Assembly (NCBI GenBank): GCA_947472765.1
Contig: CANJCM010000048.1
Span: 1-37,255 of the forward strand
Direction of reading: 5' to 3'
DNA: 37,255 bases
From: Opitutia bacterium
Lineage (GTDB): Bacteria > Verrucomicrobiota > Verrucomicrobiia > Opitutales > Opitutaceae
Within the stretch, counting starts at the first letter, position 1. Every line of letters begins with the position of its first letter. The position numbers and the translations under genes are program-made. The notes under the pieces were generated by a model. The model was not told the origin of the DNA, did not search any database, and saw nothing but the letters and a program-made list of their open reading frames with translations. This document shows positions 1,206 to 20,553 of this stretch, one piece after another.

Positions 1206-1287
1206 AATGGGTGGCGCGCAGCGCCGGGGTGTGTCGTCCGGTCTGTTATAACCCGCGACACCCGCCCGGGCGGCCGGATTGAGCCTC

Positions 1288-1334
1288 GTCACCTGTTCGT
1301 CACCCGTTTGGCACCGCCGTAACGAATCCGTAAC
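1288..1334 (+). promoter_or_regulatory. Pho box array, distal cluster (five half-sites)
   Basis: GTCAC at 1288, GTCAC at 1299, GGCAC at 1310, GTAAC at 1319 and GTAAC at 1330. The steps are 11, 11, 9 and 11 bp. Direct repeats of a GTCA(C/T)-like core at one-helical-turn spacing are the hallmark of PhoB binding sites. They lie upstream of the porin and pst genes, which are classical PhoB targets. The spacing is read directly; PhoB binding is inferred. Confidence 0.75.
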
Positions 1335-1361
1335 ACGGAAAACGGTACTCGTTCCCCGTTT

Positions 1362-1388
1362 GTCACGCGACCGACACACAACTGTAAC
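1362..1388 (+). promoter_or_regulatory. Pho box array, proximal cluster (three half-sites)
   Basis: GTCAC at 1362, GACAC at 1373 and GTAAC at 1384, with exact 11-bp steps. The cluster ends 53 bp before the chosen porin start at 1442, a normal place for an activator site overlapping the -35 region. An in-frame ATG at 1400 would leave almost no room for a promoter and leader, which supports the later start. Confidence 0.78.
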
Positions 1389-4004: not shown

Positions 4005-6248
4005 GTGTCTCTTCCTTCTCCTACGCTCCCGACTCCGCCCGCCCGACGCCTCGTCGGCTATGCAGTCTCGCGCCGGGTGAAGTGGATCGACTCGGCCGCG
4101 AACATCCTCATCCGCGCCGGGGGCGTCAGCATCATCGCGATTGTCGCGCTGATGTTCGTGTTCCTCGGCTTTGAAACCCTCCCGCTGTTCCGCGGGGCGA
4201 AGCAGAAGGTGGTCTTCGAGTCCCCGCTGCCCGGTGCCCCGGCCCCGGCCGCGATGCTGGCGCTCGGTCTCGATGAGTACGAATCGCACCTCTATTACGT
4301 CGATGCCACCGCCGGCGTGCTGCGGTTCGTGGACGCCGCCACGCGCAAGCCGGATTCGGAGTTTCCGATCCGGGCCCTCGGGAAGTCCAGGATCACCGCG
4401 GCCTATCGCACGCCTTCGCGGGACAAGATCGTGCTCGGGACCGACGACGGCCGGCTGATCTTTGTGGAGGCCAAGTTTGCGATTTCCTACACCGACACGG
4501 CCGAGCGCACGGTGAAGTCCGGCGTCGGCGAAATGGGCCAGGTCGCGGCGGTCGTGCCGGCGGCGATCGTGAAGGTCCACGCCCGGCAAAATTCGACGGG
4601 AGATTTTTTCTACGCCTACGCCACCGCCGACGGCGCGGTCTATTCCGGCAAGTTCGTCGAGGGCGAGCCCGCAGACGCGCCGCAGCCGGTGGGCCGACTC
4701 CGGGCCGGAACCATCGTTGGCCTCGCGACCGACTACGAGGGCAACAAGCTCTTCATCGCGACCACGGCCGCGAAGCTCTACCAGTATTATCTGGCCGAGC
4801 AGCGGGAGGAGCCGTTCCGCGTCTACGATCTCCCTGCGCCGATCACCGCGCTCGATTTCATCATCGGCGATGTCTCGCTGCTGCTGGGCTTCGCGGACGG
4901 TCGCGTCGAGTCGTGGTTCGGAGTGCGCGAGAAGGAAACCGACACGCTCAAGCCCATCCACCGGATCCACACCTTCGAAGCGATGCCGGCGGCGGTCACG
5001 TGGATCCAGCCGTCCGCTCGCGACAAGGGCTTCGCGGTGGGCTCCGCCGATGGCACGCTGAAACTCAACTTCACGACGTCGGAGCGGACGCTGCTCACTT
5101 CGAAGCTCCCGTCCGGCATCGCCGCCATCGCCTACGCCCCGAAACTGACCTCGCTGCTGGCGCTGGGCACGGATGGCACCACCCGGCTCACGGCGGTGGA
5201 TAATCCGCACCCGGAAATTTCCTTCAAGGCCCTGTTCGGCCGCGTGCACTACGAGGGCTATGACGAGCCCGATTACATCTGGCAGAGCACGGGCGGCACG
5301 GACGACTTCGAGGGCAAGTTCTCGCTCGTGCCCCTGACGGTTGGGACGTTGAAGGGCGCGTTTTACGGACTGCTCTTTGCGATCCCGGTGGCCGTCTTCG
5401 CCGCCTTGTACACCTCGCAATTCATGGCGCCGTCGCTGCGGGTCTACTTCAAGCCGACGATCGAGATCATGGCGGCGCTGCCTTCGGTCGTGATTGGTTT
5501 CCTCGCCGGCCTCTGGCTCGCGCCGCTGCTGGAGGAAGTGATGATCGGAACGCTGCTCGCCGGCATCATGATCCCGCTCGCCATCGTCCTGGGCATGGTC
5601 GGCTGGGTGCTGCTGCCGCGCACGGTGCGCCGGCGCGTGCCCCCGGGGCTGGAATTGATTCTCGTGCTCCCGCTCGTCGCGCTCGGCTTTGCGGCGGCGC
5701 AGGCGCTCGGGCCCACGGTCGAGGGCCTGCTGTTCGGCGGGAATTACCGGCAGTGGATCTTCGACGCGTTCGGCCGGCAGTTCGAACAGCGCAACTCGAT
5801 CGTGATCGGCATCGCGATGGGCTTCGCGGTCATCCCGATCATCTTCACGATTTCCGAGGACGCGTTTTCCAACGTTCCCCGCGCGTTCCGCAGCGCGAGC
5901 TTCGCCCTCGGCGCGAGCCGCTGGCAGACGGCCTGGCACGTCATCCTGCCCACCGCCAGCCCGGGCGTCTTCTCCGCGGTGATGATCGGCTTCGGTCGCG
6001 CCGTCGGCGAAACGATGATCGTGCTGATGGCGACGGGTAACACGCCGATCATGAGTTTCAGTCCTTTCAACGGCATGCGCACGCTCGCCGCCAACACCGC
6101 CGTCGAAATTCCGGAGGCCCCGATGGGCGGCACGCTGTACCGCGTGTTGTTCGTCGCCTCCCTCCTGCTGTTCGGGCTCACCTTCATCTGCAACACGGTC
6201 GCAGAGGTCGTGCGGCAGCGGCTGCGGGAGAAATATCAGGCCGTATGA
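4005..6248 (+). CDS. pstC: Phosphate ABC transporter permease PstC with large periplasmic insertion
   Basis: One of two membrane subunits of the Pst importer. At 747 residues it is more than twice the length of E. coli PstC. Residues about 39-58 form a first membrane helix, followed by roughly 370 residues of soluble beta-rich sequence with repeated FxxAxxDGxxxS-like blades (such as GTDDGRLIFVEAKF and LGFADGRVESWFGVRE), suggestive of a beta-propeller. The canonical permease starts near residue 445 (GTLKGAFYGLLFAIPVAVFA). It contains the coupling EAA loop FALGASRWQTAWHVILPTAS near residue 633 and GRAVGETMIVLMATGN. Large PstC proteins are also known from Pseudomonas-type systems. The GTG at 4005 was chosen because it gives a natural cytoplasmic N-terminus. 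The gene overlaps pstA by 4 nt (ATGA). Confidence 0.92.
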   Translation: MSLPSPTLPTPPARRLVGYAVSRRVKWIDSAANILIRAGGVSIIAIVALMFVFLGFETLPLFRGAKQKVVFESPLPGAPAPAAMLALGLDEYESHLYYVDATAGVLRFVDAATRKPDSEFPIRALGKSRITAAYRTPSRDKIVLGTDDGRLIFVEAKFAISYTDTAERTVKSGVGEMGQVAAVVPAAIVKVHARQNSTGDFFYAYATADGAVYSGKFVEGEPADAPQPVGRLRAGTIVGLATDYEGNKLFIATTAAKLYQYYLAEQREEPFRVYDLPAPITALDFIIGDVSLLLGFADGRVESWFGVREKETDTLKPIHRIHTFEAMPAAVTWIQPSARDKGFAVGSADGTLKLNFTTSERTLLTSKLPSGIAAIAYAPKLTSLLALGTDGTTRLTAVDNPHPEISFKALFGRVHYEGYDEPDYIWQSTGGTDDFEGKFSLVPLTVGTLKGAFYGLLFAIPVAVFAALYTSQFMAPSLRVYFKPTIEIMAALPSVVIGFLAGLWLAPLLEEVMIGTLLAGIMIPLAIVLGMVGWVLLPRTVRRRVPPGLELILVLPLVALGFAAAQALGPTVEGLLFGGNYRQWIFDAFGRQFEQRNSIVIGIAMGFAVIPIIFTISEDAFSNVPRAFRSASFALGASRWQTAWHVILPTASPGVFSAVMIGFGRAVGETMIVLMATGNTPIMSFSPFNGMRTLAANTAVEIPEAPMGGTLYRVLFVASLLLFGLTFICNTVAEVVRQRLREKYQAV

Positions 6249-7918
6249 GCGAATCGCACCTGACCCAGTCCACGAATCCGGGCACCCGGCTGCGCCAGAT
6301 TTTCCGGCGTGGCGATCACCTGCTGTGGATGAGCGGCGGTGCGATGGGCCTCGCCATGCTGCTGATCGCGGGGCTGCTCGGCCTCGTTTTCGTCAGCGGG
6401 TTCACCTACTTCTGGCCCCACGAAGTCACGGCCGCCGATCGCGCGGACGGCACCAAGTTGCTCGGCCGGATCACGGATCAACAGCCCGGGCATCGCGATG
6501 CGGGTGGCCAGGTCATCAAGACGGCGCAGATCCAGTTTCGGATCGGGAACCGCGAGTTGTACGGCTTCGACTTTGTCTGGGTGCCGACGGCCGAGTTGGG
6601 AAATTTTCGCACGCTGCCGGACGTCGTGCAGCTCGAGCGGCAGGAGTATGGTGACTTTCTCGGCTTCCTGAAGCGGGTCGAATCCGCCGACGGCGCCCGG
6701 GTCGAAGGCCCGGCGGGTTGGGATCTGCTGCTCTCGCGTCAGCCCGTGGCGCGTGAACTCGCCGCCCGGGCCTCCCGGCTCCAGCGCGATGACATCGGCG
6801 CGGTCAATTACCAGATTCAGAAGGCCAAGCTCCGGCTCACGGTCGCCCAGCGCCGCGCCGGGCCGAACGGCCGGGTGCCATCGGAATTGCAGGGTGCGGT
6901 GGACGCCGAACTGTCCCGCCTCAACGCCGACTACGAGCGGCTCCGGGCGGAGAGCGCCGCGCTGCTCAAGCAGGCGACCGCCTGGCAGGCCGTGTTCACC
7001 ACCATCGACGGGCAGGAGAAGAAGGTCCCGCTGGCCTCGATCGTCCGCGCGTTCCGGCCGAATGCGATGACCGTGACCGAGAAGGTCCGGCATTACCTCA
7101 GCCGGGCCGCCGAGTTCGTCTACGGCGAGCCGCGCGAGTCGAACACCGAAGGCGGCGTGTTTCCCGCGATCTTCGGCACCGTCATGATGACGATCCTCAT
7201 GAGCCTCGTCGTGACGCCATTCGGCATCGTGGCGGCCTTCTACCTGCGGGAGTACGCCAAGCAGGGCCCCGTGGTGCGGATTGTCCGGATCGCAATCAAC
7301 AACCTCGCGGGCGTGCCCTCGATCGTCTTCGGCGTCTTCGGCCTCGGCTTCTTCGTTTACTTCATCGGCGGCGGCATCGACCGGATGTTCTTTCCGGAGA
7401 TGCTGCCGACGCCGACCTTCGGCACCGGCGGAATTCTCTGGGCGTCGCTGACGCTTGCGCTGCTGACGGTGCCGGTGGTGATTGTGGCCACCGAGGAAAG
7501 CATCGCCGCCGTGCCGCGCGGGGCCCGGGAAGGGTCGCTCGCCCTCGGCGCGTCCAAATTCCAGACCATCCTCAAGATCGTCCTCCCGGCCTCGGTGCCC
7601 GGCATTCTCACGGGGGTCATCCTCGCGATGGCGCGCGGCGCCGGTGAGGTCGCCCCGCTGATGATCACGGGAGTGGTGAAGCTCGCGCCCGAGATGCCGT
7701 TCGATGCCCACTTCCCGTTTCTGCACCTCGACCGGAAGTTCATGCATCTCGGCTTCCACATCTACGACGTCGGCTTCCAGTCTCCGAACATCGAGGCCGC
7801 CAAGCCGATGGTGTTCACCACCACGCTCCTGCTCATCGGGATCGTCATCCTCCTCAACCTCGCGGCCATCCGGCTGCGAGATCGCATTCGCAAGAAATAC
7901 CAAACCGGAGTTTTCTGA
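6245..7918 (+). CDS. pstA: Phosphate ABC transporter permease PstA with extended N-terminal region
   Basis: Second permease subunit, 557 residues against about 300 in E. coli. A membrane helix near residues 30-57 is followed by about 245 extra residues, including a charged helical stretch ([19 protein letters not shown], then [20 protein letters not shown]) likely to form a coiled coil. The conserved permease begins near residue 303 ([20 protein letters not shown]). It carries the EAA loop [20 protein letters not shown] near residue 431 and [14 protein letters not shown]. The start ATG overlaps the pstC stop and the stop overlaps the pstB start, so the three genes are translationally coupled. 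PstC and PstA are both enlarged, so the extra regions may pack together on the periplasmic side; that is inference. Confidence 0.92.
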
Positions 7919-8890: not shown

Positions 8891-9550
8891 ATGTCACACT
8901 CCGCCGAAGAAATCAGCCGCCTGAAGGAAAGTCTGCTCGCCATGGCCAGCCACGCCGAGTCCGCGGTCGCCCGCGCCATGCGGGCGCTCGTCGAGCGGGA
9001 CGATGCCCTCGCGCGGCAGGTGCAGGAGGACGACAACATCCTCGACCGCTATGAAATCGAGATCGACGAGGCCGCGATTCACATCCTGACCAAGGCGCCG
9101 CTCGCGACCGATCTCCGGCTCACGACCGTGGCGATGAAGATTTCCCAGAATCTCGAGCGGGTGGGGGACGAGGCGGTGACCATTGCCCGCCGGGCCATCG
9201 ACCTCGGGGCCGAGCCGCAGCTCAAGCCGTACGTCGACCTGCCGCGGATGGCGACGATGTCGCTCGAAATGCTGCGCGACGCAATTTCCGCCTTTATCAA
9301 CCGGGAGACGGACAAGGCCCGTGCCGTCGTGCCGCGCGACACGGATGTCGACAATCTGAACCGTCAGCTGCACCGCGAGCTCTCGAGCTACATGGTCGAA
9401 CGGCCCACGACGATCACGCGCTGCCTGCACTTGATGGTCATCTCCAAGAGCCTCGAGCGCATCGCGGACCATGCCACGAACATCGCCGAGGAGGTCGTGT
9501 ACCTCTACGAGGCGAAGGACATCCGGCACGCCGGAACCAAGTCGGAATGA
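8891..9550 (+). CDS. phoU: Phosphate signalling regulator PhoU
   Basis: PhoU links the Pst transporter to PhoR and keeps the Pho regulon off when phosphate is plentiful. The 219-residue all-helical protein shows the two repeated PhoU three-helix bundles. Metal-binding-type motifs appear in each half: NLERVGDEAVTIARRAI near residue 92 and SLERIADHATNIAEEVVYLY near residue 190. The opening helix KESLLAMASHAESAVARAMR also fits. Length is normal for the family. The phoU stop overlaps the phoB start by 4 nt (ATGA), so regulator synthesis is coupled to PhoU synthesis. Confidence 0.95.
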   Translation: MSHSAEEISRLKESLLAMASHAESAVARAMRALVERDDALARQVQEDDNILDRYEIEIDEAAIHILTKAPLATDLRLTTVAMKISQNLERVGDEAVTIARRAIDLGAEPQLKPYVDLPRMATMSLEMLRDAISAFINRETDKARAVVPRDTDVDNLNRQLHRELSSYMVERPTTITRCLHLMVISKSLERIADHATNIAEEVVYLYEAKDIRHAGTKSE

Positions 9551-10233
9551 AGCAGAAAATTCTCGTCGTCGACGATGAGCCGGACGCGCTCGAAATCCTG
9601 GCCTTCAAGCTGAAGGAGGCGGGCTACGCGCCCCTGCTCGCCAAGGACGGCGCCCGGGCCATCACCCTCGCCCGCGACGAGCGGCCGGCGCTGATCGTGC
9701 TGGATCTGATGCTGCCCGAGGTCGACGGACTCGAGGTCTGCAAGATTTTGCGGCAGGATCCCGGCACCTCCGGGATTCCGATTATCATGCTCACCGCCCG
9801 CGCGACCGAAATGGACCGCGTGATTGGGCTCGAGCTGGGCGCCGACGACTACGTCACGAAGCCCTTCAGTCCGCGCGAACTCGTCCTGCGAATCAAGAAG
9901 CTGCTCGGGCGCGTGAAGGCCTCCGAGGAGCCCGTGGCGCACCTGCGCTTTCCGCTGCTCGAGATCGACGTGCCCAAGCATCAGGTGAACGTGGCGGGCA
10001 CAGTGGTGTCGCTCACGGCCACGGAATTCAAGCTCCTCGAACTGCTGGCGCGGCGGCGCGGCCGGGTGCAGACGCGCGATCGGCTGCTCCAGGATGTCTG
10101 GGGTTACGACAACCCGATCGACAGCCGCACCGTCGACACGCACATGCGCCGGCTGCGCGAGAAGATTGGCCAGGCGGCCGACTATCTGGAGACGATCCGT
10201 GGCGTGGGCTACCGTTTCAAGGCGGAGGACTGA
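9547..10233 (+). CDS. phoB: Phosphate regulon response regulator PhoB
   Basis: A 228-residue OmpR/PhoB-type response regulator. The receiver domain (1-120) has the acidic pair D9/D10, the phospho-acceptor D53 (LIVLDLMLPEVDG), the conserved T in MLTAR and K in YVTKPFSPRELVLR. The C-terminal winged helix (about 130-228) has SLTATEFKLLELLARRRGRV and the recognition segment DSRTVDTHMRRLREKIG, ending in TIRGVGYRFK. It is predicted to bind the 11-bp direct repeats seen at 1288-1388 and 12030-12056. Its place between phoU and a histidine kinase in a pst cluster makes the PhoB identity secure beyond sequence family alone. Confidence 0.93.
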   Translation: MKQKILVVDDEPDALEILAFKLKEAGYAPLLAKDGARAITLARDERPALIVLDLMLPEVDGLEVCKILRQDPGTSGIPIIMLTARATEMDRVIGLELGADDYVTKPFSPRELVLRIKKLLGRVKASEEPVAHLRFPLLEIDVPKHQVNVAGTVVSLTATEFKLLELLARRRGRVQTRDRLLQDVWGYDNPIDSRTVDTHMRRLREKIGQAADYLETIRGVGYRFKAED

Positions 10234-10313: not shown

Positions 10314-11495
10314 ATGACCGCCGGCGGTGCCATTCTTTTCCTGCTTTTAGTCGCGGCCCTGGGCCTGGCCTGGTGGTTGCACAGCCGCCTGGAGGCGGCG
10401 CAATCACGCCATGAGCGTGAACTGGCGGAGGAACGCGCGCGCCACGCCACGGCCCTGCATGAGCAAACGTCCCGCATGGAGGCGATGCTCGATGGCATGA
10501 TCGAGGGACTCGTGGTGCTCGACGGGCGCGGCCGGATTGCGCGCGCGAACCGCGCGGCCGAAGCCATGTTCAGCTTCTCCCGCATGATGATCGGCGGCAC
10601 GCTGCTCCAGGCGATCCGCAACCATGAGGTCGCGGCACTGGCCGCGCGGGCGGCGGCCGGGACGACTGCGATCGAACACGAGGTGCGGCTCGAGGGCACC
10701 AAGCCGCGAATCCTGCAGGTGAGCGCGGTCGCGCTGCGCGATCCCAATGGCGCCACCACGGGTGCGGTGCTCGTCTTTCACGAGGTGACGCGGCTGCGGG
10801 AACTCGAGGCCATGCGCCAGGACTTCGTCGCAAACGTCAGCCATGAGCTGCGGACGCCCCTCTCGCTGATCAAGAGCGCGGCGGAAACCCTGATCGACGG
10901 CGGACGTAACGATCCTGCAATCACTACCCGCTTCCTTGAGATCATCGACAAGCATGCGACCCGGCTGAACCTGCTGATCGACGATCTCTTGCTGCTCGCG
11001 CGGCTCGATTCGGGGCGCGTCGAGTTGAAATTCCAGCCGGTGGCTCTGCGGCCCGCGGCCCAGGAGGCGCTGCAGGATGCGGCTCTGGCGGCCCGCTCCC
11101 GGAACGTCACCCTCGAAAACCAGATGCCGGCGGAGGTCGTCGTGCGCGGTGATCCCGAGCGGCTGCACCAGGTGCTGACCAACCTGATCGACAATGCGAT
11201 CAAGTACGGTCGTATCGATGGCCGTGTGGTCGTAGCCGGCCGCTTGCTGCCGTCCGGCGGGGCCGAATTCTCCGTCCGCGACGACGGGCCCGGCATCCCG
11301 CCCGAGGCGCTCGCGCGGATTTTTGAACGCTTCTACCGGGTCGACAAGGCGCGGTCGCGCGAGCAGGGCGGCACCGGCCTCGGCCTCGCGATCGTCAAGA
11401 ACGTGGTGCAGGCCCATGACGGCGAAGTCCGCGTCGAGAGCGCGCCCGGCGCCGGCACGGAGTTCATCATCACGCTGCCCGCGGCGGCAAAATAG
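10314..11495 (+). CDS. phoR: Phosphate regulon sensor histidine kinase PhoR
   Basis: A 393-residue membrane kinase expected to phosphorylate PhoB under phosphate limitation. One N-terminal membrane segment (AILFLLLVAALGLAWWL) is followed by a charged coiled coil (about 25-60) and a PAS domain (about 55-160: GMIEGLVVLDGRGRIARANR). There is no periplasmic sensor domain, as expected for PhoR, which senses through PstSCAB-PhoU. The dimerisation domain has the phospho-acceptor His177 in FVANVSHELRTPLSLIKSA. The ATPase domain has the N box (HQVLTNLIDNAIKYG), G1 (VRDDGPGIP), F box (FERFYRVD) and G2 (GGTGLGLAIVKNVV). It starts 80 bp after phoB without an obvious terminator. The ATG at 10314 directly precedes the membrane segment. 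Confidence 0.92.
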   Translation: MTAGGAILFLLLVAALGLAWWLHSRLEAAQSRHERELAEERARHATALHEQTSRMEAMLDGMIEGLVVLDGRGRIARANRAAEAMFSFSRMMIGGTLLQAIRNHEVAALAARAAAGTTAIEHEVRLEGTKPRILQVSAVALRDPNGATTGAVLVFHEVTRLRELEAMRQDFVANVSHELRTPLSLIKSAAETLIDGGRNDPAITTRFLEIIDKHATRLNLLIDDLLLLARLDSGRVELKFQPVALRPAAQEALQDAALAARSRNVTLENQMPAEVVVRGDPERLHQVLTNLIDNAIKYGRIDGRVVVAGRLLPSGGAEFSVRDDGPGIPPEALARIFERFYRVDKARSREQGGTGLGLAIVKNVVQAHDGEVRVESAPGAGTEFIITLPAAAK

Positions 11496-11554: not shown

Positions 11555-11656
11555 GAGTTCCTTCGACGGAGGGAATGGACAGTGCTCTTCTGCAATCGGA
11601 GTGATTTGAGCCTGAAGCTAGGAATTCAGGAATCGAACTCCAACCGATTCAGCCGC

Positions 11657-11761
11657 TGTCATTCTGAGCGCAGCGAAGAATCCATGCTCTCGAGGTAAGT
11701 GCCTGTGTGGATGACCAAGCCTGTCGCTGCGCTCGGTAACTTCGCTGCGCTCAGAATGACA
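11657..11761. repeat. TGTCATTCTGAGCGC inverted-repeat element, empty form
   Basis: The left arm 11657-11677 and right arm 11741-11761 are perfect 21-bp inverted complements, starting TGTCATTCTGAGCGC. They are separated by 63 bp without a gene. The same arms flank the GIY-YIG gene at 36427-36988. When translated, this repeat gives the widespread spurious peptide HSERSEE. Confidence 0.75.
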
Positions 11762-11816
11762 GGGTATTCACACAGTCTGGTGAGCGAGTGGGCGAGTACG
11801 TTGTCGCAGACTGCTT

Positions 11817-11915: not shown

Positions 11916-12029
11916 AATCGGCAAGACAGCAGGCGCGCGCACGAGGCGCGCCCCTGCGAAATGCGGCTCGAAGTGCGGAACGAAGCGGGCAGCGGGATGA
12001 GCGTAGGGCCTGCGGTTCTTCGCCCGATT

Positions 12030-12056
12030 GTAACGTGAGCGCCACGTGATCGGCAC
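12030..12056 (+). promoter_or_regulatory. Pho box array upstream of the lipid-remodelling operon
   Basis: GTAAC at 12030, GCCAC at 12041 and GGCAC at 12052, with exact 11-bp steps. This matches the spacing and core variants of the array before the porin. It ends 40 bp before the GTG start of the first operon gene. An upstream in-frame ATG at 12046 lies inside the array and is therefore unlikely to be used. Confidence 0.68.
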
Positions 12057-12096
12057 CCGCTCATGTTCTTCTGTGGGCGGTCTTTCGCACCGTCCC

Positions 12097-13257
12097 GTGA
12101 AAATCGCCCTCGTCACCGAAACCTTTCCGCCGGAAATCAACGGCGTGGCCATGACGTTTGGCGTGATCGTGCGCCAGCTCGGCAGCCGCGGGCATCAGGT
12201 GACGGTGTATCGGCCGCGCCGTGACGATCTGCCGGCGGGAGAAACGCATCCCGAATTCACCGAGGTGCCGATGCCGGGCATCCCGATTCCGCGCTACCCG
12301 CAATTGCGCCTGGGCTTTCCGGCGGCGGGGCGGCTCCGGCGCTGGTGGAGCGAGGACCGTCCGGACTTGGTGCACGTGGCGACCGAGGGGCCGCTCGGCG
12401 CCTCGGCGGTGACCGCGGCGCGCGCGCTCGGAGTGCCGGTGACCTCGAGCTTTCACACCAACTTCCACGCCTACACCCGGCATTACGGTTTCGGACTGGC
12501 GCACCGGCCGGTGCTCGCCTGGCTGCGCCACGTGCACAATCGCACGCGGCGGACCTTCGCCCCGACCCCGGAGTTGTGCGAGGAGCTGACCGCCCTCGGC
12601 TTTCGGGACGTGGCCCTGCTTTCCCGCGGGATCGACACCTGGCAGTTTCATCCCGTCCGGCGGGCCGAGGAGCTGAGGGCGAAGTGGGGCGCCGGGCCCG
12701 ACGATCCGGTGGTGATTCATGCCGGACGGATGGCGGCCGAGAAAAACTACGGGCTGCTCGCCCGCACCTACGCCGCCATGCAGCAGGCGAATCCGCGCTG
12801 CCGGTTCGTGCTTGTGGGCGACGGACCCCTGCGCGTCCGGCTGCAGCGCGAGCATCCGGGCTGGATCTTCACGGGCTTCATTTCCCGGGCCGATCTGGCC
12901 CGCCACTATGCCTCGGCGGACATCTACGTTCATGCCAGCCTCACGGAGACTTTCGGCAACGTCCTGACCGAGGCCATGGCCAGCGGGTTGGCGGTCACGG
13001 GTTTCAACTACGCCGCCGCGCGCCAGTTCATCCGTCATGGGGCGAACGGCCTGGTGGCGGACTGCGAACAGCCCGAGACGCTGATCGACACGGCGGTCTA
13101 TCTCGCCACCGACCCGCTGCTGCGCGCGCAGATCCGGCCGGCCGCCCGCGCGGCGACGGAGCACCAGTCGTGGGACCAAATCATCGCCCGGTTCGAGGCC
13201 GATCTCCTCCAGGTCGCAGGTGCGCCGAGTTCCTGCCCGGAACCGGTCCTGGCGTGA
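12097..13257 (+). CDS. GT4 glycosyltransferase, probably acting on diacylglycerol (glycolipid synthesis)
   Basis: A 386-residue GT-B fold enzyme of family GT4. The N-terminal acceptor domain opens with VKIALVTETFPPEINGVAMT and carries the SFHTNFHAYTRHYG motif common to SqdX/MgtA/PimB-type lipid glycosyltransferases. The C-terminal nucleotide-sugar domain has VIHAGRMAAEKNYGLLARTY, FVLVGDGPLR and the EX7E motif in SLTETFGNVLTEAMASG. The GTG at 12097 places the first beta strand at the N-terminus and leaves the Pho box free. It is the first of four genes overlapping by 4 nt, ending with a PlcP-like phospholipase C. In other bacteria PlcP is paired with a GT4 enzyme (Agt) that glycosylates the released diacylglycerol, and the same role is inferred. 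The sugar cannot be told; no sqdB is present to argue for sulfoquinovose. Confidence 0.8.
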   Translation: MKIALVTETFPPEINGVAMTFGVIVRQLGSRGHQVTVYRPRRDDLPAGETHPEFTEVPMPGIPIPRYPQLRLGFPAAGRLRRWWSEDRPDLVHVATEGPLGASAVTAARALGVPVTSSFHTNFHAYTRHYGFGLAHRPVLAWLRHVHNRTRRTFAPTPELCEELTALGFRDVALLSRGIDTWQFHPVRRAEELRAKWGAGPDDPVVIHAGRMAAEKNYGLLARTYAAMQQANPRCRFVLVGDGPLRVRLQREHPGWIFTGFISRADLARHYASADIYVHASLTETFGNVLTEAMASGLAVTGFNYAAARQFIRHGANGLVADCEQPETLIDTAVYLATDPLLRAQIRPAARAATEHQSWDQIIARFEADLLQVAGAPSSCPEPVLA

Positions 13258-14450
13258 GTGCCCGCATCCTGATTCTCACCGCGGGATTCGGCGAGGGCCA
13301 CAATGCCGCCGCGCGCGCGCTGGCGGCCGCCTGCGACGCCCGCGAGGGTCCCGGCACCGCCCGCATCGTGGATGCGTTTGCCCTCGCCTCGCCCCGACTC
13401 AATGCCGTCGCGCGCTCGACCTATGTCGCCCTGATAACCCGGGCGCCCGGGCTGTGGAGCGCGGTCTACCGCTGGCTGGATTGCTCGCCCTCCGCTGATC
13501 GCGTGATGGCTCTGCTCGCCCGCGAACGCCGGGTCCTGCTGGACGTGATCGACCGGGAGCGACCGCGGATCATCTGCAGCACCTATCCGGTGTACGCCTT
13601 TCTCCTCCGGCAGCTCGCTGCGGCCGGCCACCGGCTTCCTCCGCACTACAATGTCGTCACCGACTCGATCAGCATCAACTCGCTCTGGTGGCGTGCGGGC
13701 GCGGCCGGCTGGTTCGTGCCCAATCCCGAAAGCGGCGAGGTGATGATCGCGGCGAAGGTGCCGGCGGAGAAGATTCACGTGCTCGGCTTTCCCGTGACCT
13801 CGCATTTCGCGGATCACGGGGCGGGCGTGACGCCCGGGGCAATTTCGGCCGGATGTCCGCCGCGCGTGCTGTGCATCGTGAACTCGGGCACTCCGGCCGC
13901 CGCGGAGATCGCGCGTCGCATCCTGACTGACACCGACTGGGAGGTGACCTGCACCGTGGGAAGAAACTCCGCGCTTGAGGCCGAGCTCATGCGGCTCGCG
14001 CTCCGCCGCCGGCCGCCGACCCGCATCCTTGGCTGGACGGATCAAATTCCCCAACTGCTGCTCACGCATCATGTGGTCGTGACGAAGGCGGGAGGCGCCA
14101 CGACGCAGGAGGCGCTGGCGGCCCGTTGTCCGATGATCGTGAACCAGATCGTGCCGGGGCAGGAGGAGGGCAACTATGAGCTGCTGCGCCGCCATGGCAT
14201 CGGCGCCCTGGCCGAGACGCCGGCCGCGGTGCTGGCCGCCTTGCGCGGGGCGTTTGCCAACGATGGCGCGGTCTGGCGCGAGTGGCGGCAGGCGATTGCC
14301 GTTTTGCACCGGCCGGAAGCGGCGGCGGAGATTGCCGGATTCCTGCTTCGCCATTCCGGGTCCACGGTCGCCGGCGTGACGAAGGCCGGGCCGGCCGCGC
14401 TGCCCGACCTGGTGCCCGCGACGGTCTCACCGACGGGAGCCCGCGGGTGA
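13254..14450 (+). CDS. MGDG-synthase-like GT28 glycosyltransferase
   Basis: A 398-residue GT-B enzyme resembling plant and bacterial monogalactosyldiacylglycerol synthases and processive diglucosyl-DAG synthases. The N-terminal motif SARILILTAGFGEGHNAAAR corresponds to the GxGHxxAA signature. The C-terminal donor site has ILGWTDQIPQLLLTHHVVVT followed by KAGGATTQEALAARCPMIVN and PGQEEGNYELL, the GT28 pattern KxGxxTxxEAL...PGQEEGN. These enzymes move galactose or glucose from a UDP-sugar to diacylglycerol. The GTG start at 13254 overlaps the GT4 stop (GTGA) and the stop overlaps the kinase start in the same way, so the genes are tightly coupled. With GT4 it could build mono- and diglycosyl lipids, or the two may act separately on DAG. 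Confidence 0.82.
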   Translation: MSARILILTAGFGEGHNAAARALAAACDAREGPGTARIVDAFALASPRLNAVARSTYVALITRAPGLWSAVYRWLDCSPSADRVMALLARERRVLLDVIDRERPRIICSTYPVYAFLLRQLAAAGHRLPPHYNVVTDSISINSLWWRAGAAGWFVPNPESGEVMIAAKVPAEKIHVLGFPVTSHFADHGAGVTPGAISAGCPPRVLCIVNSGTPAAAEIARRILTDTDWEVTCTVGRNSALEAELMRLALRRRPPTRILGWTDQIPQLLLTHHVVVTKAGGATTQEALAARCPMIVNQIVPGQEEGNYELLRRHGIGALAETPAAVLAALRGAFANDGAVWREWRQAIAVLHRPEAAAEIAGFLLRHSGSTVAGVTKAGPAALPDLVPATVSPTGARG

Positions 14451-15376
14451 AGACGCGCTTCATTTTTAATCCCAATTCCGGCCGGAACCGTCGGCGCACG
14501 TGGCTCGCCGGGTCGATCCGGGATTTCATCGCCTTGCGCGGCCTCGACGCCGACGTCGCGATCACGGAAGGGCCGGGGCACGCGACGGTCCTGGCGGAGG
14601 AGGCGGTGCGGCAGGAATGCGGGATCGTCGTGGCCGTCGGTGGCGATGGCACAATGAACGAGGTCGCGCAGGCGCTGGTGGGAACCCGGGCGGCACTCGC
14701 CCTCGTGCCGTGCGGCTCGGGCAACGGACTCGCCCTGCATCTCGGACTCCCTCTCGCCACGACCGCGGCGCTGCACCTCGCCGCGGGTGGCGAGGGGCGG
14801 ATTGCGGCGATCGACACCGGCGTCGCGAACGGGCACCCCTTCTTCAATGCGATGGGCCTCGGGCTCGATGCCGAGGTCAGCCACCGCTTCAACCGGCTGA
14901 CCCGCCGCGGGCTGCCGGCGTATGCCCGCGTGGCATTCGGCGCCCTCCGCTCGCTGCGGGGCGAAACGTACACGATCACCAACGGGGCGACCCACGAGAC
15001 GATGGACGCCTTGCTGGTCGCCGTCGCGAACTCCGACCAGTACGGCAACAATGCGCGCATCGCCCCCGGTGCGCGGGTCGACGATGGCAGCCTTGACCTG
15101 GTGGCCGTGCGCCCGGTCGGTCTGCCGGGAGCGTGCGGCCTCGCCCTGCGACTTTTTCTTGGCGGCTTTGATCGCAGCGCGAAGGTGCGACGGCTGCGCG
15201 GCCCGCGCTTCCAGATCTCCCGCCGGGCCCCCGGGTTGATCCACACTGACGGCGAGACCCACGAGACGGATGCGATGGTCGTCATCGAGGTGCGGCCCCG
15301 CAGCCTGCGTCTCGTCGTTCCCGCCCGTTGTGCGGCCGTGGCCGCCCTGCCTTCTCCCGAACTTCAACTCACATGA
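14447..15376 (+). CDS. Diacylglycerol kinase family lipid kinase (YegS/DgkB type)
   Basis: A 309-residue soluble lipid kinase with the DAGK catalytic domain. KTRFIFNPNSGRNRRRTWLA starts the first strand, VVAVGGDGTMNEVAQALVG is the GGDGT nucleotide-binding motif near residue 65, and LVPCGSGNGLALHLGLP is the GSGN(D) motif. The C-terminal beta-sandwich includes NAMGLGLDAEVSHRFN, ARIAPGARVDDGSLDLVAVR and LIHTDGETHETDA, as expected for lipid or sphingoid-base kinases. It would phosphorylate diacylglycerol or a related lipid with ATP. Its presence in an operon that seems built to generate and glycosylate diacylglycerol is unexpected. It may return surplus DAG to phosphatidate or act on another lipid. 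The GTG at 14447 overlaps the previous stop. Confidence 0.85.
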   Translation: MKTRFIFNPNSGRNRRRTWLAGSIRDFIALRGLDADVAITEGPGHATVLAEEAVRQECGIVVAVGGDGTMNEVAQALVGTRAALALVPCGSGNGLALHLGLPLATTAALHLAAGGEGRIAAIDTGVANGHPFFNAMGLGLDAEVSHRFNRLTRRGLPAYARVAFGALRSLRGETYTITNGATHETMDALLVAVANSDQYGNNARIAPGARVDDGSLDLVAVRPVGLPGACGLALRLFLGGFDRSAKVRRLRGPRFQISRRAPGLIHTDGETHETDAMVVIEVRPRSLRLVVPARCAAVAALPSPELQLT

Positions 15377-16173
15377 AACTGCACGTCCGAACGGTGATCA
15401 TCTCCGACGTCCACCTGGGTACGTCGGACTCGAAGGTGAACGAAGTGAATCACTTTCTCCGTCACGTCCGCTGCGCCAAGTTGATCCTCAACGGCGACAT
15501 CATCGACGGCTGGCAGCTCACCCGCAGCGGGCAGTGGCAGAAGCCACACACGCGCTTCGTGCGAATTGTCCTGAAGATGATGGAGAAGAAGGACACCGAG
15601 GTCGTGTACCTGCGCGGCAACCACGACGATGTCCTGGCTTCCTTTCTTCCGCTCGACTTCGAGAACCTGCGCATCGTCGAGGACCACGTCCACGAGGGCC
15701 CGGCGGGACGCTACCTCGTTCTGCATGGCGATGTCTTCGACGTCGTGACCAAGAATTTCGTCTTCCTCGCGCACCTTGGCGACTGGGGCTACCGCGCGCT
15801 GCTGGGCATCAACCGGCTCTATAATGTATGGCGGAGCTGGCGCGGCCTGAAGTACTGGTCGCTCAGCCGCGCGATCAAGGCCCGGGTGAAGAAGGCCGTG
15901 AACCACGTCTCGAACTTCGAGGAACACATCGCGCGGCTCGCCCGGGAGCGGGGCTGCATTGGCGTGATGTGCGGGCATATTCATACCGCGGCCGACAAGC
16001 GCATTGGCGATATTCATTATCTGAACAGCGGCGACTGGGTCGAATCGATGACCGCGGTGGTGGAACACTGGGACGGCCGGTACGAGCTGATCGAGTTTAC
16101 GCAGTTTGTGCAGCAGTACCCGATGGCGCGGGAAGTGCCCGAAGACTCGCCCGAGGAGTTGGTGGCAAAGTAG
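15373..16173 (+). CDS. plcP: PlcP-like phospholipase C (metallophosphoesterase) of phosphate-starvation lipid remodelling
   Basis: A 266-residue calcineurin-like phosphoesterase. The metal-binding motifs run in order: IISDVHLGTSDSKVNE (DxH), LILNGDIIDGWQL (GDxxD), VYLRGNHDDVLAS (GNHD), LVLHGDVFDVV and GVMCGHIHTAADK (GHxH). The region HLGDWGYRALLGINRLYN, the YWSLSRAIKARVKKAVNHVS stretch and YLNSGDWVESMTAVVEHWDG matches the PlcP group. PlcP hydrolyses phosphatidylcholine, -ethanolamine or -glycerol to diacylglycerol when phosphate is scarce, releasing the phosphate head group. The distant relative LpxH (UDP-diacylglucosamine hydrolase) is the main alternative. The two upstream glycosyltransferases and the Pho box argue for PlcP. 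The ATG at 15373 overlaps the kinase stop (ATGA). Confidence 0.84.
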   Translation: MKLHVRTVIISDVHLGTSDSKVNEVNHFLRHVRCAKLILNGDIIDGWQLTRSGQWQKPHTRFVRIVLKMMEKKDTEVVYLRGNHDDVLASFLPLDFENLRIVEDHVHEGPAGRYLVLHGDVFDVVTKNFVFLAHLGDWGYRALLGINRLYNVWRSWRGLKYWSLSRAIKARVKKAVNHVSNFEEHIARLARERGCIGVMCGHIHTAADKRIGDIHYLNSGDWVESMTAVVEHWDGRYELIEFTQFVQQYPMAREVPEDSPEELVAK

Positions 16174-17679: not shown

Positions 17680-18342
17680 TCAGGTTTCGAAATATTTTTC
17701 CCGGGCGCGGACCTGCACGAGCGTCCGTCCGGGCAGGATACAGGCCGTCAGGTAGCCGCCGTGCACGCAGCCGGTGTCGATGCCAAGCGACCAGCGTTCC
17801 CGCGCCGGTTCGGGGCGGGGAGTGTGTCCGTAGATCACAAAAGGTGGTCCGACCCAGAGCTGGGACCAGTGCGGCGCTGCCGGAAATTCGGAACGCTTGT
17901 GCGGCTGGCCGTCGGGTCCGACCACCTGGATGCGGGTCACGATGCGCGAGGCCTGACCGCGCCACGGACGGCCCGGCAGAAATCCGCCATGCACGAGGAC
18001 GGTCGCCTGGCCGGGCACGCCATACGTCAGCCGCATCGCCTCGAGATAGGCCCAGTCCTTGGCGCGGAGTTGTTTCAACGTCTCGTAGTCGGACTTTTTG
18101 AGGTGGGTCGGGTCGCCGGTGCGGCGATAGTTCAGCAGGCGCAGCTCATGGTTGCCGAGCAGGGCGAGGTCCGCATGTTCCCGGGCGAGGTCCAGCACGC
18201 GCCCGCTCTCGGGGCCGCGGTTGACCAAGTCGCCGAGCAGGACGACACGGTCGCGACGCCCGGGCTGAATCTTCTGCAGCAACTCCTCGAACTCGGCCGC
18301 GCATCCATGGATGTCGCCGATGACTATGGTCCGTTCCTTCAT
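17680..18342 (-). CDS. PPP-type metallophosphatase (ApaH/PrpE-like), coupled to ppk
   Basis: A 220-residue enzyme with the phosphoprotein-phosphatase metal-site motifs in order: MKERTIVIGDIHGCAAEFEE (GDxHG), VVLLGDLVNRGPES (GDxVxRG), ALLGNHELRLLNYRRTGD (GNHE), VLVHGGFLPGRPW (HGG) and FVIYGHTPRPEP with GIDTGCVHGGYLTA. Relatives hydrolyse diadenosine tetraphosphate (ApaH, PrpE) or phosphoproteins (PphA). The substrate cannot be decided here. Its ATG (18342) overlaps the ppk stop by 4 nt, so the two proteins are made together. A role in polyphosphate or nucleotide-polyphosphate turnover is plausible but inferred. Confidence 0.83.
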   Translation of the reverse strand: MKERTIVIGDIHGCAAEFEELLQKIQPGRRDRVVLLGDLVNRGPESGRVLDLAREHADLALLGNHELRLLNYRRTGDPTHLKKSDYETLKQLRAKDWAYLEAMRLTYGVPGQATVLVHGGFLPGRPWRGQASRIVTRIQVVGPDGQPHKRSEFPAAPHWSQLWVGPPFVIYGHTPRPEPARERWSLGIDTGCVHGGYLTACILPGRTLVQVRAREKYFET

Positions 18343-20483
18343 CGGGCCGTCGGACGGGGGGCGGGCGGAGCCGCGTTCCGCAGCGTCGCCTCGGCCATGA
18401 AGTACCGCTGGGCGGAGAAAGGCGCGGCGGGCGGGAGCACGGGCACGGCGGCATACGAGCCGTCGGGCTGCAGCACCCGGGCGTCCTCGGTGTCCTCCAG
18501 TTCGTTCCGGAGGATGTCCTGCAGCAGGTGCTGCTGCAGGGCCGGGTCCTCGATCGGGAACAGTGTCTCGATCCGGCGGAAGAAGTTGCGCGGCATCCAG
18601 TCGGCGCTCCCGCAGTAGACGAGCGGCTGACCGCCATTGCCGAAGTGAAAGATGCGGGCGTGCTCGAGGAACCGGCCGACGATGCTGCGCAGCCGGATGT
18701 TTTCGCTCAGGCCGGGGACACCCGCGCGCAGGCAGCAGGTGGCGCGGACGATCAGGTCGATTTGGACTCCCGCAGCCGAGGCGGCGTAGAGGTTGTCGAT
18801 CGTCTCCGGGTCGACCAGTTTGTTCATCTTCGCGATGATGCGCGCGGGTCGTCCGGCACTGGCGTGCGCGGCCTCGGCCGCGATCAACTCCTGGGTGCGG
18901 CGGTGCAGGTTGAACGGTGCCACCAGCAGCCGGTCGAACTGCGGGGTCCGGCCGAGCCCGGTGAGCACGTTGAACAACTGGGCAATCTCGGCCGCCACCT
19001 GCGGGCGGCAGGTGAGCAGGCTGACATCGGTGTAGAGCCGCGCGGTCCGTGGGTTGTAGTTGCCGGTGCCGAGGTGCACGTAGCGGCGAAGTTCGGCGCC
19101 TTCGCGGCGGACCACGAGGCAGCATTTGCAGTGCGTCTTCTGGCCGACGACGCCGTACACCACGTGGACCCCGGACTCCTCGAGTTCGCGGGCCCACTTG
19201 ATGTTGTTGGCCTCGTCGAAGCGGGCCATGAGCTCGACGAGCGCCGTGACCTGCTTTCCCGCCATCGACGCCTGAATCAGCGCCCGCACGATCGGCGAGT
19301 CGCCGCTCGTCCGATAGAGAGTCTGCTTGATCGCGAGGACATCCGGATCGCGGGCGGCCTCGTCGACGAACTGGACGACCGGGGCGAACGAATCGTACGG
19401 GTGATGCAGGAGGATGTCGCCCTCGCGGAGCGCCGCGAAAATTTCCGGCTGCCGGACGAGCGCCGGGCATTCAGCCGGGGTGAACGGCGGATACTTCAGG
19501 TCCGGCCGGTCGATCATGTCATAGAGGCTCATCAGCCGCGTGAGGTTCAACGCCCCCTGGATGCGATACGCGTAGACGGGGTCCAGATCGAGATGCCGGC
19601 ACAGGGTGGCGAGGAGCTCGGGATCGACCCCGTCGTCGATCTCGAGCCGGACCGCGGCGCCGCGGCGCAGGTTGCGCAGTTCCTGCTCGATGCGCTTCAG
19701 GAGGTTCTCGGCCTCCTCTTCGTCGATGTACAGGTCGCTGTTGCGCGTGACCCGGAAGGCGTGCGCGCCGCGCACCGTGTAGCCGGGGAGCAGGGCCGCC
19801 GCGCACAGCTTGATAATCTCGCTGAGAAAAATGTAGCCCTGCCGGCCGTCAGCCGAAGGCGGGAGCGGCACGATCCGCGGGAGGCTGCGCGGCACCGGGA
19901 CGAGAACCATCACGGATTCCGCGGTGCCCTCCGCGGGACTCGCGACGGACACGAGCACGTTGAGCGATTTGTGCGCGAGCTGCGGAAACGGATGCGCCTG
20001 ATCGACGGCGAGTGGCGTGAGCACGGGCAGCACCTGTTGATCGAAGTATTGGCGGACGTAGTCGCGTCCGGGCGCATCGAGCTCCGCCGCGCCTTGGATC
20101 GCGATGCCCGCGGTCGCGAGCCGCGGGATCAAGTCGTACTGCCAGCAGCGGTACTGTTCGCGCACCATCGCCGCGACCTCGCGTCCGACTGTCCGCAGCT
20201 GTTCGCGCGGCGTCGTGCCGTCGATCCCGGCGACCGCCGTGGCCGAGTCAGCCTGCTGCACCAGGCCGGCGACGCGGATCTCGAAGAACTCGTCCAGATT
20301 CGAGCTGACGATGGCGAGGAACTTCACCCGCTCGAGCAGCGGATTGCCGGGGTTGAGGGCCTGGTCCAGCACGCGGCGATTGAACGCGAGCCAGCTTTGT
20401 TCGCGATTCCCATAGATCGAGCGCGCCGGCTTCGGCACGGCGGAGGAAGTCAGGGTGCTGCGCTTGGCGCGGGAGGCGGACAT
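18339..20483 (-). CDS. ppk: Polyphosphate kinase 1
   Basis: PPK1 reversibly makes inorganic polyphosphate from ATP. The 714-residue product has all four family regions. The N-terminal domain is IYGNREQSWLAFNRRVLDQA and FLAIVSSNLDEFFEIRVAGL. The head domain includes FPQLAHKSLNVLVSV. The two phospholipase-D-like catalytic domains contain KQTLYRTSGDSPIVRALIQA, ARFDEANNIKWARELEESGV, the autophosphorylated His470 in YVHLGTGNYNPRTARLYTDV, and the second His in HARIFHFGNGG. Length is normal. The gene opens a two-gene minus-strand unit with the PPP phosphatase. Two 11-bp-spaced GTCAC cores lie 55-70 bp upstream but point towards the divergent methyltransferase gene. Confidence 0.96.
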   Translation of the reverse strand: MSASRAKRSTLTSSAVPKPARSIYGNREQSWLAFNRRVLDQALNPGNPLLERVKFLAIVSSNLDEFFEIRVAGLVQQADSATAVAGIDGTTPREQLRTVGREVAAMVREQYRCWQYDLIPRLATAGIAIQGAAELDAPGRDYVRQYFDQQVLPVLTPLAVDQAHPFPQLAHKSLNVLVSVASPAEGTAESVMVLVPVPRSLPRIVPLPPSADGRQGYIFLSEIIKLCAAALLPGYTVRGAHAFRVTRNSDLYIDEEEAENLLKRIEQELRNLRRGAAVRLEIDDGVDPELLATLCRHLDLDPVYAYRIQGALNLTRLMSLYDMIDRPDLKYPPFTPAECPALVRQPEIFAALREGDILLHHPYDSFAPVVQFVDEAARDPDVLAIKQTLYRTSGDSPIVRALIQASMAGKQVTALVELMARFDEANNIKWARELEESGVHVVYGVVGQKTHCKCCLVVRREGAELRRYVHLGTGNYNPRTARLYTDVSLLTCRPQVAAEIAQLFNVLTGLGRTPQFDRLLVAPFNLHRRTQELIAAEAAHASAGRPARIIAKMNKLVDPETIDNLYAASAAGVQIDLIVRATCCLRAGVPGLSENIRLRSIVGRFLEHARIFHFGNGGQPLVYCGSADWMPRNFFRRIETLFPIEDPALQQHLLQDILRNELEDTEDARVLQPDGSYAAVPVLPPAAPFSAQRYFMAEATLRNAAPPAPRPTAR

Positions 20484-20537
20484 GGAAGCGGCGAAATTCG
20501 AGGTGCGCTCCGGGTGAGACGAGCCGATACCAAATCC

Positions 20538-20553
20538 GTCACGAGATTGTCAC
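20538..20553 (+). promoter_or_regulatory. Possible two-unit Pho box in the ppk/methyltransferase divergent region
   Basis: GTCAC at 20538 and GTCAC at 20549, exactly 11 bp apart. Two half-sites make a minimal Pho box. No third unit fits on either side, and the orientation is towards the plus-strand gene rather than ppk. Confidence 0.4.

Follow-up and report, generated by a model that had tools for sequence, protein, structure and literature searches.

The exchange of phospholipids for glycolipids at low phosphate is known from several bacteria, in which PlcP, a metallophosphoesterase-type phospholipase C, and a GT4 glycosyltransferase (Agt) are encoded in one Pho-box-controlled unit, as in Pseudomonas aeruginosa (PA3219-PA3218), Methylosinus trichosporium and Phaeobacter (PMC8528852; PMC9239053; PMC4796936). 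In P. aeruginosa the products of the pathway are monoglucosyl-diacylglycerol and glucuronosyl-diacylglycerol, from Agt1 and Agt2 (PMC8528852). Here we describe a related four-gene operon in a 37,255-nucleotide stretch of an Opitutia bacterium (CANJCM010000048.1; the window), which is one complete contig (C48) of a genome of 157 contigs and 4.97 Mb. The operon has PlcP, a GT4 enzyme and a Pho-box array in common with the PlcP-Agt pathway, and unlike that pathway it adds a GT28 glycosyltransferase and a lipid kinase between the GT4 gene (first) and plcP (last). We interpret it, with a probability of roughly 0.75, as a PhoB-activated membrane-remodelling operon that would exchange phospholipids for glycolipids when phosphate is low.

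The surroundings of plcP are more varied than the original prediction for this locus had assumed. Its statement that the lipase comes with one GT4 enzyme or with betaine-lipid enzymes in known PlcP systems is too strong, as six plcP contexts have been described, some with other glycosyltransferases (PMC4796936), and several type Ia methanotrophs, including Methylobacter and Crenothrix, are reported to encode a B. subtilis-type (UgtP-type) diacylglycerol (DAG) glycosyltransferase near plcP (PMC9239053). The methanotroph enzyme has been likened to one making mono- to tetraglycosyl-DAG (PMC9239053), and the window shares this UgtP-type addition. In contrast to those methanotrophs, where no agt is reported beside plcP and the word kinase is absent from the available text of PMC9239053, the window has the GT4, the GT28 and the kinase together. 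A diacylglycerol kinase also goes with PlcP in Pseudomonas putida BIRD-1, where both proteins are enriched when phosphate is low (PMC5082522); the kinase of the window, a YegS/DgkB-type enzyme, is translationally coupled with PlcP, whereas for BIRD-1 neither the linkage nor the type of DagK is stated in the available part of that paper. In the DAG cycle of lipoteichoic acid synthesis in Firmicutes, the homologous glycosyltransferase and kinase (UgtP and DgkB) likewise share one DAG pool; the DAG comes from LtaS there and would come from PlcP here, and ugtP and dgkB are not known to form one operon there.

Among the matches listed, no open-licence paper describing the four-gene operon was found by title or abstract start in searches on PlcP, Verrucomicrobi, Opitut, DAG kinase and lipid remodelling, and titles and abstract starts yielded nothing on PlcP in Akkermansia or on its glycolipids. 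Thus, the exchange of phospholipids for glycolipids is known from other bacteria and the four-gene set is new, a novelty limited to the gene set because publications already describe plcP with a neighbouring UgtP-type gene and PlcP with a DagK that responds to phosphate. The papers considered here have little on the phylum: PlcP has been noted in one verrucomicrobial single-cell genome (PMC4796936), and verrucomicrobial methanotrophs are described as being without it (PMC9239053). Lipids reported for Coraliomargarita comprise phosphatidylglycerol, phosphatidylethanolamine and unidentified lipids, with no low-phosphate test among them in the part of the report available (PMC11165907).

All four genes are on the plus strand, in the order GT4 glycosyltransferase (12097..13257; 386 aa, GTG start), GT28 glycosyltransferase of the UgtP/MGD type (13254..14450; 398 aa, GTG start), YegS/DgkB-type lipid kinase (14447..15376; 309 aa, GTG start) and PlcP (15373..16173; 266 aa, ATG start). 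As the original prediction had noted, each of the three junctions is an overlap of exactly 4 nt, the genes ending at 13257, 14450 and 15376 and the following ones starting at 13254, 14447 and 15373. The GT4 gene most likely starts at the GTG at 12097 and not at the listed open reading frame start at 12046, because a GTG or ATG occupies the aligned position in 22 of 22 GT4 genes measured in relatives. We compared the junctions in two sets of relatives that overlap in organisms: 26 re-fetched loci, and 80 named loci that are the best 80 of 495 relatives and therefore lean towards the kin of the window. Among measured junctions of the re-fetched loci, the 4-nt overlap was found at GT4/GT28 in 21/22, at GT28/kinase in 16/17 and at kinase/PlcP in 16/18; the corresponding values for the named loci were 43/69, 46/52 and 40/56.

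Upstream of the operon, three hexamers with an 11-bp period (TGTAAC-N5-CGCCAC-N5-CGGCAC; 12029..12056, plus strand) form a Pho-box array that ends 40 nt before the GT4 gene. With a hexamer matrix derived from 9 sites in the porin-pst promoter (1256..1388, plus strand, recognized by their hexamer pattern), this array scored 18.8 bits, the highest value on the contig outside the training promoter. First-order Markov sequence gave a mean of 0.02 matches of equal score per 37 kb (50 simulations), a figure that is optimistic, as the training pattern was written after inspection of these upstream regions; for this reason we place more weight on conservation in relatives. With a matrix made from 8 of the 9 hexamers, a site scoring at least 12 was found within 160 nt of the GT4 gene in 68 of the 73 named loci with that much upstream sequence, compared to 1.4% of random 160-nt stretches from the same loci, and in 61 of the 73 no other site in the locus scored higher than the upstream one (the other 7 of the 80 had too little upstream sequence or no measured GT4). 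Anchored rows of 23 upstream regions show a repeated GTAAC...GCCAC...CAC pattern, with a few rows misplaced by the anchor. The predicted 11-bp-spaced array is conserved, and Pho control of the operon is supported as far as sequence can indicate.

The last gene is, on the evidence of its sequence, PlcP and not LpxH. Its product is 47% identical to a PA3219-type protein whose gene adjoins a glycosyltransferase gene and cyaB on a plasmid of P. aeruginosa (locus L141), and 43% identical to a Sinorhizobium protein encoded near genes for an acyl-homoserine lactone (AHL) synthase and LuxR, presumably SMc00171. These two proteins are 46.6% identical to each other, which fits the 46% quoted for PA3219 (PMC8528852), and the L141 stretch is taken to be the PA3219-PA3218 region. 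Seven PlcP-type proteins were 42-50% identical to the protein of the window and an eighth, from Thioclava, 30%, whereas E. coli LpxH reached 20% over 171 aa and was the outermost row of the PlcP tree, on a very long branch. GNHD and GDWV(E/D) occur in all 9 aligned PlcP-type rows and are absent from E. coli LpxH, which has GNRD. The metallophosphoesterase motifs are intact (D-x-H at 12/14, GD at 41-45, GNHD at 82-85, HGD at 118-120 and GHxH at 201-204). In the whole genome the LpxH model reached solely the plcP gene, with 30 bits against a cut-off of 134, and the genome carries LpxI (3e-40). The structure model of PlcP has a pLDDT of 78 and superposes poorly on LpxH structures (rmsd of about 10-13 Å), so that the ranking of folds is weak evidence.

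Some observations on the PlcP relatives are of separate interest. The plcP-glycosyltransferase-cyaB stretch of L141 (CP075839.1) lies on a P. aeruginosa plasmid, and the same PlcP match was found on two more P. aeruginosa plasmids; we presume this stretch to be chromosomal in the species. Likewise, the region with the AHL synthase, LuxR and PlcP genes of S. meliloti, which we take to be chromosomal, is contained in a 3.7 Mb record labelled pSymB (L135; CP090106.1), a label that looks wrong. In Parabacteroides (L137, 4977-6898), a PlcP with 50% identity to that of the window overlaps by 4 nt with a gene for a PF13528 glycosyltransferase, another pairing of PlcP with a glycosyltransferase.

Residues 284-292 of the GT4 protein form an E-x7-E motif, which is typical of retaining GT4 enzymes. 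Searching the genome with the Agt1-type protein of L141 gave a single match at E<=1e-5, the GT4 of the operon (7.4e-32), with 32-36% identity (32% in the comparison of the two gene pairs). Matches to NCBIfam models were all below cut-off; the GlcN-PG synthase model scored highest, with 138 bits against a cut-off of 480, followed by Mgs with 90 bits against 400.

The second glycosyltransferase carries the PF06925 domain (MGDG_synth) and the GxGH and GQE-x-GN motifs, as GEGH at residues 13-16 and GQEEGN at 302-307. Almost the entire protein aligns with plant MGD1 and with the model for B. subtilis-type diglucosyl-DAG synthase, the latter with 145 bits against a cut-off of 500 and hence without an equivalog call. 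The match to the UgtP-type structure 9wde covers profile positions 91-377 and a short segment at the N-terminus. It had been described as a homologue of plant-like GT28 synthases of monogalactosyldiacylglycerol. The assignment to the GT28 enzymes of the DAG-glycosyltransferase type holds; the term plant-like is not supported, as profile searches matched UgtP-type 9wde (8.8e-39) and plant MGD1 (4wyi; 6.1e-37) about equally well and the single sequence matched 9wde better (3.6e-21, compared to 2.9e-14 for 4wyi). A plant origin is thus without support, and the enzyme is better called UgtP/MGD-type.

The third gene product has the DAGK_cat and YegS_C domains and a GGDGT motif (residues 65-69), and scores 117 bits with TIGR00147, just below the cut-off of 118.65. 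BmrU-type and DgkB structures and YegS were its best profile matches, and the fold of its predicted model was closest to DgkB and YegS, with sphingosine kinase 1 slightly lower. The lipid kinase proposed for the operon is thus confirmed at the level of family, with bacterial DAG kinases as its best matches. The genome encodes a second YegS-type kinase on another contig (C55; L170, 4993-5868), about 51% identical to that of the operon. In the loop after GxxN, 14 of 15 operon kinases, including that of the window, read GLALHL (GLARFL in L092), whereas GLGR or GLAR is found in 19 of 19 other kinase copies, among them the second copy of the same genome. The replaced residue is Arg also in the alignment with the BmrU-type structure and Leu in the operon kinase; the Arg distinction is drawn from the present comparison.

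In a tree of 35 kinases, all 15 operon kinases group with the kinase of L122 and one stand-alone copy (G072) on one branch (support 83/89), and 12 stand-alone copies group with five kinases beside PlcP in other genera on another (99/89). Five genomes (G143, G030, G099, G191, G138) have a kinase of this other lineage next to PlcP, and it is the sole kinase found in them at 1e-45, an arrangement that suggests a general task of the kinase on DAG. The tree suggests that kinases were recruited to PlcP twice, but duplication of a kinase that was already in the ancestral operon would explain it equally well, and double recruitment is unproven because the operon branch has a support of just 83/89 and includes the stand-alone G072. 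As a separate observation, the kinase paralogues of the genome differ within the same loop: the C55 copy has GSGD, also present in the second kinase copies of two relatives, where most others have GSGN, and the operon copy is without the Arg a few residues further on.

When analyzing relatives, we found the GT28 in 26 of 57 genomes searched (own genome included). All four genes are present in 17 of the 26 re-fetched loci (one with PlcP cut by a contig end), and two more of these loci are the halves of one contig-split operon. A search for the same four-gene order, proposed with the original prediction, was successful: of the 80 named loci, which have record titles such as Opitutae, Opitutaceae or Verrucomicrobia bacterium, 53 carry all four genes, 15 (including L096) have GT4-GT28-PlcP without the kinase, and 12 are cut by a contig end or have no GT4 match. 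Across the phylum, a sample of 240 genomes contained PlcP in 73, GT28 in 86, both in 46 and the two side by side in 15 (thresholds of 1e-30 for PlcP, 1e-20 for GT28 and 1e-45 for the kinase, at which weaker copies are missed; joint and adjacency counts were made by hand). In the family of the window, 9 of the 16 PlcP-positive genomes of this sample have the kinase beside PlcP.

Other gene sets were seen in 20 loci chosen from the phylum sample, which are not a random draw. These include GT4-PlcP (L152, L153, L154 and L155), GT4-kinase-PlcP without GT28 (L145, L147 and L148), the order GT4-PlcP-GT28 (L160-L162), kinase-PlcP alone (L149), PlcP without the other three (L146, L150, L151 and L164) and, in other classes, PlcP with an adjoining GT28 and no GT4 found (L156-L159, of which L158 and L159 are shorter stretches). 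GT4-PlcP looks like the core of the system, with GT28 and the kinase as separate additions; this core is not universal, as loci without GT4 exist. In three of the loci without GT4, a small protein is encoded between PlcP and GT28 (L156, 6826-7338; L157, 6050-6592; L158, within 4057-4689). It appears by eye to be a multi-span membrane protein, gave no Pfam match (L156 copy) and is a candidate for a new lipid-remodelling component, for instance a flippase.

Several of these genes are fused in relatives. A single open frame of about 760 aa spans GT4 and GT28 in four of 128 loci examined (L087, L095, L106 and L120, around 4846-7134; three with Verrucomicrobia and one with Rariglobus in the title). 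GT4 and PlcP form one open frame in L154 (5754-7637) and in six loci of the same family (L186-L191), which is another family (f23) than that of the window; a fusion is also seen in L193, where the GT4 part is a weak match (25%), and L194 of family f23 is unfused. These GT4-PlcP proteins are about 630-760 aa long from the first ATG. Both kinds of fusion argue for a common pathway, in which DAG may be passed directly between the enzymes. An in-frame GT28-kinase arrangement in L047 (6030-8108) could be a natural fusion or the result of a one-base assembly error and was not used.

Taken as a PhoB-activated remodelling operon, because of the conserved Pho array and the location between pst-phoU-phoBR upstream and ppk1 and phoD downstream on the contig, the locus would function as follows. 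When phosphate is short, PhoB would bind the array at 12029-12056 and turn on all four together, as a translationally coupled unit. PlcP would then remove the phosphate-containing head groups from phospholipids, leaving DAG, to which GT4, a putative Agt-type enzyme, would add a first sugar, by analogy glucose or glucuronic acid. GT28 most likely would add a further sugar to the GT4 product, resulting in diglycosyl-DAG, or could alternatively act on DAG in parallel. The lipid kinase may convert left-over DAG to phosphatidic acid, which would prevent DAG build-up and let the few needed phospholipids be remade.

Several findings weigh against this scheme, and most of them concern the kinase, its weakest link, as a phosphate spender with a changed loop in a phosphate-saving operon. 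Spending the phosphate of ATP on a lipid amid phosphate shortage fits poorly with pure sparing, the kinase is missing from 15 of the 80 named loci, and it is beside PlcP in none of the 57 PlcP-positive genomes sampled outside the family at the 1e-45 threshold. For P. putida, DagK is called PHO-dependent in the Discussion, yet DagK, unlike PlcP and OlsAB, is not among the proteins listed as absent from the phoBR mutant in the available part of PMC5082522. Moreover, the nucleotide-loop Arg that all 19 other copies keep is replaced by Leu in 14 of 15 operon kinases, so that DAG may not be the substrate. We still consider DAG the probable one, judging from sequence. Phosphorylation of another lipid (e.g., glycosyl-DAG, monoacylglycerol or a sphingoid base), giving a new anionic lipid instead of phosphatidic acid, is doubtful but has in its favor the second YegS-type kinase of the genome, the separation of the operon kinases from the branch holding 17 other copies, the altered loop and the additional fold match to sphingosine kinase 1; the best matches in sequence and predicted fold to bacterial DAG kinases and YegS, and the five genomes whose sole PlcP-adjoining kinase is of the other lineage, argue against it. 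The remaining adverse points concern the first sugar: no GT4 match was found in two of the 80 named loci (L113 and L122) despite ample upstream sequence, nor in L156-L159. These six loci speak for GT28 acting on DAG itself and so for an alternative in which GT4 and GT28 work in parallel and make two monoglycosyl lipids, like Agt1 and Agt2 of P. aeruginosa, where two enzymes are employed for two head groups (PMC8528852). Operons with GT4 and without GT28 (L145, L147, L148) point the same way. The four-locus GT4-GT28 fusion and the tight coupling of the two genes fit a relay better, though a fusion would also suit two enzymes with one common substrate. We give the sequential order about even odds and regard parallel action as the less probable, if quite possible, arrangement.

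Two further explanations would remove the operon from phosphate sparing altogether. A glycolipid anchor or an envelope glycan made for some other purpose, with the closeness to the pho genes being accidental, could be imagined since UgtP also serves lipoteichoic acid anchors in Gram-positives; the Pho array in 68 of 73 loci, the presence of PlcP within the operon and the GT4-PlcP fusions make this very unlikely. Still more improbable is that the last gene encodes the UDP-2,3-diacylglucosamine hydrolase LpxH in a cluster for lipid A or envelope polysaccharide synthesis, the outcome that had been named as refuting the original prediction. In its favor, both proteins are calcineurin-like phosphoesterases, the plasmid relatives are annotated as 'UDP-2,3-diacylglucosamine diphosphatase' in 23 of 28 cases (5 of 28 are without annotation), and the closest solved structures are those of LpxH, which match weakly in sequence and rank first in predicted fold. 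The low identity to E. coli LpxH next to that of the PlcP-type proteins, the LpxH model score far below cut-off, GNHD in place of GNRD, the presence of LpxI and the Pho-box control of the operon led us to reject this reading. Within the preferred remodelling scheme, a more specific version has GT4 and GT28, fused in some species, as a relay to diglycosyl-DAG and the altered-loop kinase phosphorylating a lipid of this line and not plain DAG. We consider it unlikely; if true, the kinase would supply either a charged lipid as a replacement or a return valve, neither of which is present in other PlcP systems.

The operon would extend Pho-driven exchange of phospholipids for glycolipids to the Opitutaceae and their kin, which have been sampled, judging from the titles of some records, in lakes, ponds, bogs, fens and groundwater. 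The prediction on lipids can be tested, since the record of Geminisphaera colitermitum TAV2 (L115), which we take to be a cultured isolate, carries GT4-GT28-PlcP. The fusions offer a test of direct passage of DAG between enzymes, and the kinase raises the question why a phosphate spender sits in a phosphate-saving operon.

Other genes of phosphate uptake and control lie on the same contig. Upstream on the plus strand are genes for a phosphate-selective porin, a PstS-type binding protein, two permeases, PstB, PhoU, a PhoB-type response regulator (9547..10233), the presumed activator of the operon, and a PhoR-type histidine kinase (10314..11495). The Pho and Pst names are based on domains and gene order, those of the last two on their domains and positions, with the regulator gene between phoU and phoR. 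Rfam and tRNA scans of the window gave no matches. The gap of about 600 bp between the PhoR-type kinase gene and the operon contains a perfect, REP-like 23-nt inverted repeat (CTGTCATTCTGAGCGCAGCGAAG; arms at 11656-11678 and 11740-11762, with 61 nt between). It holds CTGTCAT and was considered as a Pho box, and was set aside as it lies about 335-440 nt upstream of the GT4 gene and is not the conserved array. Downstream of the operon are genes for a small metallophosphoesterase, ppk1 and phoD. The small calcineurin-like phosphoesterase gene overlaps ppk1 (17680-20483, minus strand), and a relative of it is found near the operon in two other loci (L029 and L036) and beside ppk1 in a third (L161). 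A Pho-box-like triplet (13.9 bits) is located upstream of ppk1 at 20526-20553, and ppk1 may thus belong to the same regulon as the operon.

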